A stretch of DNA of 64,000 bases from Hexactinellida sp. DTS-2022. Taxonomy: Eukaryota; Porifera; Hexactinellida. Position numbers and translations under genes: made by a program. The notes under the pieces are model-generated. The model had not been told where the DNA came from. It made no database searches and saw only the letters and a list, made by a program, of their open reading frames with translations. The stretch spans positions 496,001 to 560,000 of the forward strand of contig JAPNXP010000014.1 of the NCBI GenBank assembly GCA_028753945.1, read 5' to 3'. Of this stretch, positions 35,801 through 41,800 are shown one piece after another (the first letter of the stretch is position 1; every line of letters starts with the position of its first letter).

Positions 35801-38800
35801 CCTTAAACTCCAATGTTTATTCCTTTATTCCCAGTTCGCTTTATGAATAAAAGTAAAAGAAATATTCTTAATTAATTAAGTCTCGTATGGACCCGTATTT
35901 GGATTAATAAGTGTAATGTGGTAGTAATTCAATAGGTCAAGAAATTAAAGGCTTCATTCTTAATTTAAAATAAAATATAAAATCGAATGCAAATAGAATT
36001 TTTAAGTCAAAACAGTAAAAAAATATCACAATATGTATTTATTAAAGAACCATGTTTTTTATAAACCTTTGCCAATATTGTAATTTGAATCGGAGATTCA
36101 AAATGCATTCGTCATGACTGAGTTAGCAAAACTTTTCAGTTCTTCCACCAATAAATCTCCAACTTTTGAGACATTCACACTTCCAAAAACACCCAAGTCA
36201 AAAAATAAAAATTCTAAAAAAATCTTGGAGGAAGATTCGAGCAAAATCGAAGATGATATCATCAACAAAATCGACAGAACCGAACAAGATAAATACACTA
36301 TTTATATTGGAAATCTACCAAACACATATAATGCGAAAAAACTTGTAAAACTTTTCAAAAATATTGGTGAAGTAAAAAGTGCAAGAATTCGGGCAGTTTC
36401 CACATCAAAAGCGAAAGTGCCAGCTCACATGGTACTCAAGGATAAAACGCCGATTGTACGGTCGCTATACGGATATGTTGTATTTGCACAGATTGAACAT
36501 ACAAATATAGCTGTTGGGAAATTAAACGGACATTTAATTGATGGCCGTCATATTACTGTTGATTTGTGTAACAAAAATGATAAAAAGGATACAAAAACTA
36601 CTGTGTTTGTATCTAATTTGAAATCAGAGTTGGATGAAGAAAAATTGAGGGAGTTCTTCACTGAATGCGGAAAAATAATGAAAGTTCATATTGTGAGTGA
36701 TCGAATCACAGGAATGAGTAAAAACTTTGGTTTTGTAACTTTCGAGGAAAAATCTGGTTTAATTTTGGCTCTCAAAAAGCATGGAGAAGATTTGGAAGGA
36801 AGAAATATTGTAGTGAAAAAGGCAAGCGTTAGAAATAAACTCGATTCTACAAAAAAGAAAATTCGTAAAACCCCAAAAGTAGCGAAATCTGGTAAATTCA
36901 AGTCTACTTCAACGAAAAATACTGCAAAAACTAATGATAAATCGAAAGATTTGAAAATAAAGAAACATTCAGTGAAACAAGATTTGAAAGTAAATAAACA
37001 TTCAGCGAAACACCCGTCTAACCCCCAGAAGAAAAGTATGCCAGGAAATATCATAAAACCTAAACAACAACAACAACAACAACAACAACGCAAGTACAAG
37101 AAATCTGCAACAAAGAAAACAAAGAAAACTAAAAAGACTGACAAACTCCGCAATCCTTTACTCCCTAAGATGCCAGGAGCTAAATACAAAAAATCTAAAA
37201 AATAAATTTATTTTTAGTAGATTAGTAGTTTGGTTGTTAGTTATAGGAAATACACATAAACATGACTAATCCTTATATTATAAAATATATTCATTATTTG
37301 TTATTAGATTTCCCTGACAGACCATCAACACTTCCACCCGATTTAACTCCAAAACCCGAAAACACATTTCACACATCATGTGGCTCACTTCTAAGTGGTG
37401 TAACTGGTACATTCAGTTACACACTCCAAAATGAAGATTTATGTCAATGGCTTATACATGCACCAGAAGGACATTATATACGTTTGGTTGTTGACATGAA
37501 TATACCTGGAAGGTTCATTAATAAATCTAGCAAATACTTAATATATAAATGTCTTAAATTCAATCTATTTTATAGAAGTGGCGAGTGTGAAAACGGACTT
37601 GAGGTTATAGATGGTCACCAGTTAAAGGGATATTCACATGGGAATTATTGTGGCGTGTACAGTGATTATACGTTCCTTTCTACCTACAATTATATGTTAA
37701 TTAAACTGCATATTGCAAACAGAGCTCGTACAGTTCAATTCACTGCTAATTCAGTTGCAACTGGTAAGTTATATGACAAATACAGTCGACTCCGCTTAAT
37801 AGGGTCACTTTGTTACAAAGTAGTTTGACCCGATTAAGCGGAGAAATCTATTAACAAAAAATATTTTGAGCCAAACTGTAATTCCGCCCTATAAATCCTG
37901 TGTAATTTTGATCCAATTAAGCGGAGAAATCTATTAATTAACTTAACTTATAAAGCGGAGTATACTCTAATTTGAATTTGTAAGGCACTTAAATGACTTA
38001 AAAGGATTCATTATTTAGCTAATATAGTGTGCTAGTCTTTACCCAATATTTGTGTTATATAATTTGCGTATTTAGATAGAGACGAATGCTCGTTTTACGC
38101 TAGATATTGTCAGAATGGATGCGAAAATATTCCAGGAGGATTTACTTGTTTATGTAGTGAAGGATATTTCGTTTCAAGAAATAACAGAACCTGTTTTGGT
38201 AAGTTTAAATGGAATTTATAATTGAACTACTTTAGTTAAGTGCTTTTCTGATTTTGGAATTTGCAATTAAGCGAATTCCTTTGACCCTGAGTCATTTGTA
38301 GAATTCCCAATGTTTTTTTCATTATTTCCTTCCGTAAGATGATCTAATTCTTATCAAGATCAGTATCACTCCTTATCAACTGTTTGTAACCCTCTTTGAC
38401 TTCACAAAACTTGAAAACAAATATTTTCAAACTTAAATCATTGATCAACTTTGATTCAAATTCTTTATGCAAATTGTACCCTTACAAGACTTATCTAGTC
38501 TGACATAATAAATACGTTTTGGCTTCTAAATTACACACATAATACCAAGTACAGGACAAAACTAGTATACCGGTATCAATACATTTCCAAGGATTAAATT
38601 TTTTTATCAATGTCCGTATTTGGTTGAAACCATTGTAAGCTACACTCAATGGAAGGTCTAACTGGTATCTCCTTAATTGATCAAGCAGGGTATCTTAACG
38701 CATGAGTATAAATACACGTTTGAAGTGGGTTATTTATCCCAACAATTCCAAACCATCAAAATGAGAGTACTTCACATTCTTCTTGGTTGTTTGGTTGCTA

Positions 38801-41800
38801 CACTAGCCAACACGCGCCCAGTTTCCGATGAAATTGACTCGGATAAAATCGAATCGTACAACCATTTCTTTTCAATTAATGAAAATCTTTACAACCTATG
38901 GTATTTCCCTTCCACCTCGAAAGCTACAACTCCCAAACCGCTTCTAGTTTGGTTCGGAGATGGAGAAACGAGTTCTTCTGTAGACATGTTTGGGCAAGGT
39001 GGTCCTTACGAATTCCGCTTCGACGAAGTTGAAACACATGGGCCTTGTTGTCCCTGCCCCCCCTGCCCAGCCTGTCCAAACTCTATCGAGGAAACTGAAC
39101 CTAATCACCCAAGACCCCACCATTGCACTAGCTGCCCTACTCCAGGTGACTCAGAAGATATCACTGAGGTGAGTGACAGTTCTTTCGAAATTCCTGATAA
39201 TAAGCATCATCATCATCGTGACCATTGCTGTCCCTGCCCACCCCCTCCCCCTCCCCCTGGCCCTCACCCTGGCCCTCACACGCCCCCCTCTCCTCCCTCT
39301 CCTCCTACACCTCCTACACCTCCTACACCTCCTGGTTTCTACGAACACCCGCCACACCCCCACCCAGGGCCACACCCAGGCCCACACCCCCATCCCCATC
39401 CTGGCCCCCACCCTGGTCCTGGCCCCCATCCTGGTCCTGGCCCCCATCCTGGTCCTGGCCCTCACCCCCACCCCCACCCTGGTCCTGGCCCTCACCCCCA
39501 CCCCCACCCTGGTCCTGGCCCTCACCCTGGTCCTGGCCCTCACCCTGGTCCTGGTCCCCATCCACATCCACATCCACACCCTGGCCCGAACCCTGGCCCT
39601 CATCCTAGTCCCCCTAGCCCCCCTACCCCCCCTGGCACTCATACTCCCCCAACCCCTCCGACACCAACACTTGGCGTAGCTGAATTTGACATTGAAGCTC
39701 CTGGTCATCACCCAGGACCACATCCAGGCCCAGGCCCTCACCCACACCCACACCCTGGTCCTGGCCCACACCCTGGTCCTGGGCCCCACCCTGGTCCAGG
39801 TCCCCATCCTGGTCCTGGCCCCCACCCTGGTCCTGGCCCTCACCCCCACCCCCACCCTGGTCCTGGCCCTCACCCCCACCCCCACCCTGGTCCTGGCCCT
39901 CATCCACACCCCCATCCACACCCTGGCCCGCACCCAGGTCCCCATCCTACTCCCCCTAGCCCCCCTAGTCCTGGCACTCATACTCCCCCAACCCCACACA
40001 CCCACACACACACACCAACACTTGGCGTAGCTGAATTCGACAATAACGGTCCCCATGTCCAAACTCACCCCACTCCACATAGTCACACCCCTCCCACTCC
40101 ACACACTCACACCCACACCCCTCCCACTCCACATCCCCATCCCGGCCCCCATCCCGGCCCCCATCCACACCCTGGGCCCCACCCTGGTCCCAAACCACAT
40201 CCAGGCCCACACCCTGGTCCCAAACCTCATCCCCATCCTGGTCCCCACCCAGGCCCTCATCCTAGCGATTCCATTGATCTCGATTACAGCGACTTCGAAT
40301 ACGATGATGAACCAATGGAAGTATTTTCGAACCCAGAATCTTGGACGGAAGCAGTTAATGTTGTCTATTTGGATTTCGCCGCCGGGTATGCTCGTTCCGT
40401 TTCGAATTCTTTTGATTTCTCGAGTGTGATAAACAAACTGTGTCGTCTACATCCGGAACTTGTTGGTAGTGAGGTGTATGTTGGTGGTAAAAATTTCGGT
40501 GCTTTTTTCGCATCGCTTGCTTTTGAGGATATTCGAGCTTCAAATTCGTCCGAAGTTAGTTTGAAGGGTTATATTTTTAGTATGTTTGCACCCGAAATGT
40601 CTAACAAATACGAATTAATCGAAAATATATCTGAAATTGTGAATGACGAAGAGTTTCGAAATGAATTCGGTTTGGATGAAAGTGACATTTGGAATCCATA
40701 TGTTTCAACTATTTTTGAACCAGACCAATATACTTATGAGCAGCTCTCAGCTTTTACTGATACTCACACTGGCAAATTTAGCACTGTTATTTCTGGCAGA
40801 GATTTAACAGTCGATGATTTGAAATTTGAGTAATCGTCTGTTCTAAATAAGTTTTCCACCCCCCCCCCCCCCCCATATTTATTCTCTATGTTTCTTTGTT
40901 TGTGTTTTGTTTATTATTTCCCCAAAGAGCTGTTCTCTATCGCTTGTTAGTTTGTTAGTTTGTTAGTTTCTAATATTGTAGTTTCTTTATTTATCTCACA
41001 GTTAAGTTATTGTGTTGTTGTTTATTTATTTAGGTTTTTGTTGTACTGAGTAATTAAATGAATTGTTGTGTCTTGAATCTTATAGTTTTTGTCTTTATTT
41101 CAAAATAAAATCACACCGTTTGAATAATATCAAACAACTACAGTAGAACCTCGTTAGTACGAACACGGTTAATACGAACACTATTTCAGTCCACTTCAAA
41201 TCCTTTTCATTACAAATGATATTGGTTTCTGGATAAGGCGAACACATTTTAACTGTCCCCTGGTGTTCCTACTAACGAGGTTGTATACTCAAATACATTT
41301 CGCACAATACCCACATTCCTTTGTACCCCTTGGTATCCTTTCCTGCTTGCTAGATATTAACGAGTGTGCCTACAACAATGGGGGCTGTCAGCATAAGTGC
41401 GTTAACACAGGAGGGGCCTATAGGTGTGAGTGCGACAGAGGATACAGACTCAGTTTCGATGAGCGGAGTTGTTTCACTGGAACAGGTATTCTATATAAAT
41501 TATAACTACAGTATGCCCGTTAATATGTACAGTAGAACTAGGTTATAACGGCCATATAAGGGACTAGCCAAAAATGACCGTTACATACAGGTTTTTATAT
41601 AACTACAGTAAACATCATAATTGAGACTTCATAATATGCGAATTCAACTTAATACAAATCCTATATAGGTAAGTTGTTAAATTTGGACCATAGGATGTTC
41701 ATTTTAGCAAAAATTCATATTAATCAGACGAAAAATTAGCAGACCTGACTGTATTAAAGAACCGAAATTTGTACTAAGCAACTCAGCATACGAACAGTTC

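Follow-up and report, generated by a model that had tools for sequence, protein, structure and literature searches.

Glassin of Euplectella is a 23-kDa protein found in concentric rings of the outer spicule silica (PMC10772126). A His-Asp (HD) motif is tied to silicification in Euplectella, with His/Thr segments reported to cooperate with it (PMC10772126), and a review names the His/Thr segments as the active part (PMC11818168). Signal peptides are reported in glassins, whose C-terminus is the best conserved region of those published (PMC10772126); in A. vastus and O. minuta conservation of the C-terminus goes together with His, Pro and Ser/Thr repeats that are mostly species-specific (PMC10282587), and for two species other than Euplectella complete precursors of ~48 kDa are predicted (PMC10282587/PMC10772126). 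In A. vastus and Oopsacas minuta the gene has one exon and is nested within another gene, and for the A. vastus genome the authors report no glassin paralogue (PMC10282587). The origin of the protein has been called enigmatic after BLAST and Foldseek searches (PMC10772126). Dealt with here is an open reading frame at 38761..40833 (+) in a window of 64,000 nucleotides (positions 496,001 to 560,000 of contig JAPNXP010000014.1, here C6) from the 112 Mb, 18-contig genome of Hexactinellida sp. DTS-2022, a glass sponge. As judged from sequence, its product is very probably a glassin orthologue, and one with descent from the serine carboxypeptidases of peptidase family S10.

The frame is continuous and consists of a single exon encoding 690 amino acids plus a stop. 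When the C-terminal 186 residues were searched, with 754 candidates drawn from 5.8 billion proteins, O. minuta Glassin (A0AAV7JXN3) was matched by residues 505-690 with 50% identity over 96% (E 1.6e-55), and no other protein matched at E<=1. The full-length alignment with O. minuta glassin is 49% identical, the N-terminus and the Cys clusters at the start of the insert being in common. With the O. minuta C-terminal region as query, only that region itself was returned at E<=10 among 764 candidates, despite the published glassins of A. vastus, Vazella and others, which seem to be absent from the database or to have too few words in common with the query. Shared with O. minuta and Euplectella curvistellata glassins are the conserved halves, a Cys/His lead-in, Pro-rich and His/Thr-rich repeats and the nested single exon; what sets the window protein apart is an insert that is made of HPGP units and is far longer (~430 residues against ~170 in O. 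minuta by one cut), and the lack of a His-Asp dipeptide. The protein itself is already known in kind, though as an orthologue it is new. An earlier note on this DNA, whose author knew of no described protein of such design, was mistaken on that score; glassin figured there as an analogy only and not as the orthologue that it is.

S10 enzymes have a catalytic Ser-Asp-His triad and a GGPG oxyanion loop. In alignment with S10 proteins (cathepsin A/protective protein, carboxypeptidase Y and wheat CPW-II) the window protein has the same order of strands and helices, and of the PLLxW, S, GP, NPxSW and YLD positions and the elbow strand with its helix. What distinguishes it is WFGDG where S10 has WLxGGPG, i.e. 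GDG in place of GGPG, and a nucleophile elbow reading GGKNFGA where the aligned S10 proteins have GESY or GQSY, with Asn578 (codon 40492..40494; Asp in O. minuta glassin) aligned with the nucleophile Ser. Some 110 residues follow the elbow, the cap and the C-terminal strands with the catalytic Asp and His are gone, and a polymer occupies one loop; neither the triad nor the GGPG of an active enzyme is present. Much of this was foreseen in the earlier note, namely an S10 fold, dead and cut short, in which a His-rich insert is lodged, the position of the insert after the (E/Q)xGP motif and before NPxSW, and GGKNFGA in place of GESYAG with the Asp/His end missing, and it is upheld by the alignment, with Pfam and profile-profile comparison concurring on S10 similarity. 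The profile check of the halves against S10 and the search for orthologues that the note had proposed yielded S10 similarity and the O. minuta orthologue, so that neither outcome named there as refuting (no S10 similarity; no transcripts and no orthologue) was obtained.

Pfam S10 (PF00450) matches the O. minuta orthologue at E 5e-6 and 26.6 bits, above the curated cut-off of 21.9 bits, and a precomputed S10 label exists on the O. minuta Glassin record. In profile-profile comparison by hhalign, glassins against S10 gave 98.1% and a score of 100.7, the maximum in 50 column-shuffled controls being 25.5. A profile built from five N halves, two of glassins and three of paralogues, had human protective protein/cathepsin A as its best match in PDB, at a weak E of 0.047. 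By these comparisons the similarity to S10 exceeds what chance would be expected to give, and glassin is very probably a secreted S10 derivative devoid of the catalytic residues, the cap and the C-terminal Asp/His strands.

Residues 1-17 (38761..38811) are a probable signal peptide on the evidence of sequence and hydropathy (mean hydropathy 2.4 for residues 3-16). Residues 18-88 (38812..39024) make up the N-terminal half of the S10 fold, as identified by alignment and PDB profile match, and contain the S10-type segment NLWYFPS...PLLVWFGDG...GGPYEF, and the C-terminal half, residues 511-690 (40291..40830), reaches the GGKNFGA elbow and is then truncated. Between the two, in the loop joining the GGPY strand to NPESW, lies the insert, residues 89-510 (39025..40290), which begins after GGPYEF and ends before NPESW, as located by the alignment with S10 proteins. 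It has 80 His in 422 residues, and the whole protein has 31 HPGP units. Its lead-in, residues 96-159 (39046..39237), is rich in Cys and His, with a similar order of Cys clusters in O. minuta glassin. The HPGP-type part, residues 160-502, is of ~340 residues, and the length of 340 put forward earlier for the repeat is right for this part; with the Cys/His lead-in, the whole insert is of ~420. Within it are two tandem units of ~115 residues, at residues 196-310 (39346..39690) and 311-427 (39691..40041), each having the glassin-type order of His-rich (here HPGP-rich and not of the HD kind), Pro-rich and His/Thr-rich parts and the end TLGVAEFD, and a third, partial block of His/Thr and HPGP type at residues 428-502 (40042..40266); all of these features are on the + strand. 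Of the codons that can be aligned between the two units, 74 are the same in both, 24 show synonymous changes and 10 nonsynonymous ones, and because the base differences are concentrated at third codon positions (28 of 43; binomial p 2e-5 against one third) the repeat is maintained as protein. Most likely, a single loop, the one that follows the GP(F/Y) strand, was extended by a Cys/His segment and, behind it, a long polymer of His, Pro and Gly.

A different type of cargo is met in two further single-exon genes, found by searching the genome with the glassin N half, at C7:2083445-2084879 (+) and C7:2073608-2075078 (-), ~8.4 kb apart and inverted (L018/L019). Both have WLGDG, AGYA and an insert in glassin's insertion loop, the cargo of one consisting of Thr/Pro repeats and that of the other of a His-rich leader followed by collagen Gly-X-Y (Pfam Collagen, E 3.7e-9). 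The N half of one, searched against the 112 Mb at E<=1, matched, apart from its own gene, just the partner gene and that of glassin (E 1.7e-6); the glassin N half also gave weak matches to S10 genes (E 0.07). Single-sequence searches with halves of glassin and of one paralogue thus bring the family genes in this genome to three in total, more distant members being liable to be missed by such searches. Relatives in the databases at E<=1 number seven, LOD99_1906 and LOD99_1908 of O. minuta and five others presumably from glass sponges. Among the nine paralogues (two genomic and seven from databases) Pfam finds S10 at E<=0.1 in eight and Collagen in five. By hhalign, the paralogues against S10 gave 96.3 and a score of 71.5 (best of 50 shuffles 22.5), and glassins against paralogues 98.1 and 95.1 (best of 50 shuffles 23.2). 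A tree sets glassins and paralogues on one side of a branch and ten S10 proteins on the other (support 100/99), to be read with caution because its branches are long and gaps are frequent in many of the 253 columns that were kept; the grouping is also backed by the shared WxGDG, GYA and insertion loop. Common ancestry of glassin and the two paralogues is shown by sequence, with other polymers occupying the same loop. Like glassin, the paralogues have the dead S10 carrier (WLGDG; AGYA or VGYA); unlike it, they carry a Thr/Pro-rich insert or a collagen Gly-X-Y insert with a His-rich lead-in, and their elbow is more eroded.

As to which S10 lineage was ancestral, none is assigned, since profile scores conflict and the tree branches are long: the glassin profile scores best with a bacterial S10 and worst with an intron-bearing S10 gene on contig C7, the very gene with which paralogue profiles score best. 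Contig C11 of the same genome has tandem intronless S10 carboxypeptidase genes (L017), with GGPGW in one copy and GGPGC in the other.

The two C7 genes, despite inserts that differ in kind, are 99.4% identical in the DNA of their C halves (466 bases) and 98.4% in that of their N halves (305 bases). The pair recurs in other assemblies. Within likely species, the identities of N and C halves are 93.3/97.4, 95.2/94.2, 96.9/91.0 and 94.7/90.5%, and tree support for the four within-species pairs is 80/98, 95/91, 77/59 and 97/100; a single source species for the third pair (P0010/P0011) is guesswork. A further contig yielded the collagen type alone (P0009). The inserts, by contrast, pair by type, with 44-91% identity among those of collagen type and 38-76% among those of Thr type, and 18-27% between types. 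Gene conversion, or recurrent duplication with exchange of cargo, would explain uniform halves combined with distinct cargoes, and the inverted C7 pair is a clear case for a study of gene conversion. On the stretch that links insert to C half, four of five collagen-type proteins have an R-x-R-R site, and the collagen-type copy in the window genome has only RR.

From a mechanistic perspective, the two halves of glassin would form one fold during secretion, with the loop spanned between them, and would bring the polymer as an inert carrier to extracellular silica layers, where its closely spaced imidazoles would condense silicic acid and may bind metal. The polymer would probably be cut out before acting, because the form in Euplectella silica is of 23 kDa and the complete precursors are about twice that. 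Silica or metal binding by the insert loop is an inference, and carriage with release is a proposition for which the balance is about even. Cutting by cathepsin L at [V/L]GG at both repeat edges has been proposed (PMC10282587). It is unsupported here, [V/L]GG being present once each in the O. minuta record and in the window protein, and in the latter at the former elbow, away from the insert edges. Slightly less assured, and falling a little short of an even chance, is the broader proposal that one retired carboxypeptidase became a modular carrier whose single loop accepts a His/Pro/Gly polymer, Thr/Pro repeats or collagen with a His-rich leader, with gene conversion homogenizing the carriers of the paralogue pairs in each species while their cargoes stay distinct across species, and with the three members together supplying polymers between silica layers.

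Several results weigh against these readings. For S10 descent, Pfam PF00450 matches the window protein at E 7.4e-4 and 19.4 bits, below the cut-off, and leaves its N half alone unmatched to S10. A C-half profile against PDB, in weak agreement with S10, had a lipase as a close second (E 0.21). A profile of the two whole glassins found mostly low-complexity matches there, with S10 chains last (E 0.4 to 0.96); the window N half alone gave no notable S10 match, Kex1 being twelfth (E 2.9), and the window C half alone gave a lipase (E 0.29) and zero S10 chains. Structure prediction, also proposed in the earlier note, did place S10 chains first, and the best of them stood 3.0 and 4.3 Z units over the best other hydrolase; however, the models are of low confidence (mean predicted local distance difference test, pLDDT, 51 and 54), and the alignments behind them included S10 sequences, so that the match in fold lacks independence from the S10 hypothesis. 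Further, Kex1 and two carboxypeptidase Y chains came only 19th to 23rd among other hydrolases with the window protein model, and Foldseek with that model returned nothing at E<=0.001. The sub-threshold Pfam match, the unmatched N half and the weak PDB E-values for both halves speak for a generic alpha/beta-hydrolase likeness or chance. That explanation is nevertheless very improbable, given that NPxSW, the GGPG-like position and the elbow follow one another as they do in S10, that the profile-profile score is some four times the best shuffle, and that eight of nine paralogues also match S10, besides the margin in Z just mentioned. Even less credible is an unexpressed relic or a repeat artefact: the 690 open codons, the third-position bias within the repeat and the 50% identity of the C-terminal part to the glassin of another species all speak against it. 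Also against it are a TATA-like box, TATAAAT, at 38707..38713 (+), 54 bases 5′ of the ATG, and a polyadenylation-type signal, AATAAA, at 41104..41109 (+), with ATTAAA also at 41053 (consensus matches only), as well as the upregulation of the orthologue in A. vastus as its osculum grows (PMC10282587).

With function, the difficulties are of a different kind. The window protein has no His-Asp dipeptide anywhere, and with it no Euplectella-type HD domain, though this domain does not define glassin orthologues, some of which have no His-rich region (PMC10772126); it has no dibasic site; its one [V/L]GG is in the wrong place for release of the insert; and where His-rich regions are absent, in glassins from A. 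vastus, R. fibulata and S. nux, silicification has been doubted in print (PMC10772126). One possibility is that the S10 halves remain attached and do the work themselves, as a pseudoenzyme module whose binding to itself, to chitin, or to collagen or other matrix proteins anchors the polymer in the layers between silica shells. The lack of a dibasic site suits this, as does the pattern of conservation, which between the two glassins falls on the non-repeat halves, with the C-terminus also foremost in the published set. Yet the silica form in Euplectella is about half of the complete precursors predicted elsewhere, and R-x-R-R in most collagen-type paralogues points to cleavage that would part the cargo from the C half, and permanent attachment is rather unlikely on this account. 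Comparably doubtful is an insert that, in this species, would bind metal (Zn, Cu, Ni) or serve as an adhesive polymer of the matrix instead of forming silica. The missing His-Asp and the published doubt would be accounted for, and the HPGP spacing and the CCPC and HHHH clusters make plausible metal sites; against it are the sheer number of His in the insert and the presence of His/Thr segments, which are reported to cooperate with HD (PMC10772126) or to be active themselves (PMC11818168). A carrier that delivers and then releases a silica-condensing polymer is preferred to either, with the tentativeness already expressed.

Descent from S10 would explain an origin hitherto enigmatic. The earlier glassin searches may have failed because the fold is split by a huge disordered loop, a split that would explain the failure of BLAST and Foldseek. 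Recognition of an S10 carrier gives glassin a testable structure, boundaries for its polymer and relatives to seek in spicule proteomes. The S10 origin and the small family with different inserts may be new, though the automatic Pfam label already points to S10; no description of either was found in the open-licence papers searched on glassin, hexactinellid silica and carboxypeptidase, among which the only glassin work naming a carboxypeptidase concerns carboxypeptidase B for tag removal. The case is also a second one, beside silicatein of demosponges (PMC10282587), of a peptidase relative associated with sponge glass. Silicatein differs in belonging to the cathepsin L family, in having Ser at the catalytic site and in its separate origin. 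Its fold is unrelated to that of S10. If the modular-carrier proposal were true, demosponges and glass sponges would have recruited two different proteases, dead or altered, to the making of glass, and the collagen-type member would be a candidate spicule collagen. A homogenized carrier with varied cargo would be a natural protein chassis for disordered polymers, useful for biomaterials. Perisilin and hexaxilin are likewise glass-sponge silica proteins related to old folds, but the folds are others (CAP and metallo-beta-lactamase), and the His-rich part of some perisilins is a C-terminal tail and not a loop (PMC10772126).

The single-exon glassin gene is nested in an intron of another gene. 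This intron, 38199..41353 (+; 3155 bases), is flanked by exons whose borders are splice-like and which, once joined, read in frame through two EGF domains; exon joining was checked across it only. Around it nine same-strand segments were scanned, of which two are astacin (M12A), one CUB, four EGF-type (that at 50365 matched only below the family cut-off) and one RRM, with one, at 31003, unmatched. From their order and strand, the astacin, CUB and EGF segments are probably of one host gene, with a scanned span of 32905..50577 (+). The RRM protein is encoded by a single open frame at 36114-37205 (+), between the astacin and CUB segments. Being inside the probable host gene, it would bring the nested genes there to at least two; a second nested gene (g619) is mentioned at the A. 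vastus glassin locus (PMC10282587).

Elsewhere in the window, a GC-rich block (48-54%) has two near-identical long open frames in inverted orientation, 52743-54203 (+) and 54213-55535 (-), which by eye look like a Mutator-like transposase with a FLYWCH-type start. Four single-exon frames (4582-5817, 10539-11771, 14232-15469 and 60729-62009) have, again by eye, the look of a coiled coil with NHL repeats, resembling TRIM proteins without RING, the copy at 14232-15469 being divided over two frames. A single-exon frame at 22403-23500 (+) appears, on inspection by eye, to have the PX-SH3-PB1 order of p40phox (NCF4).

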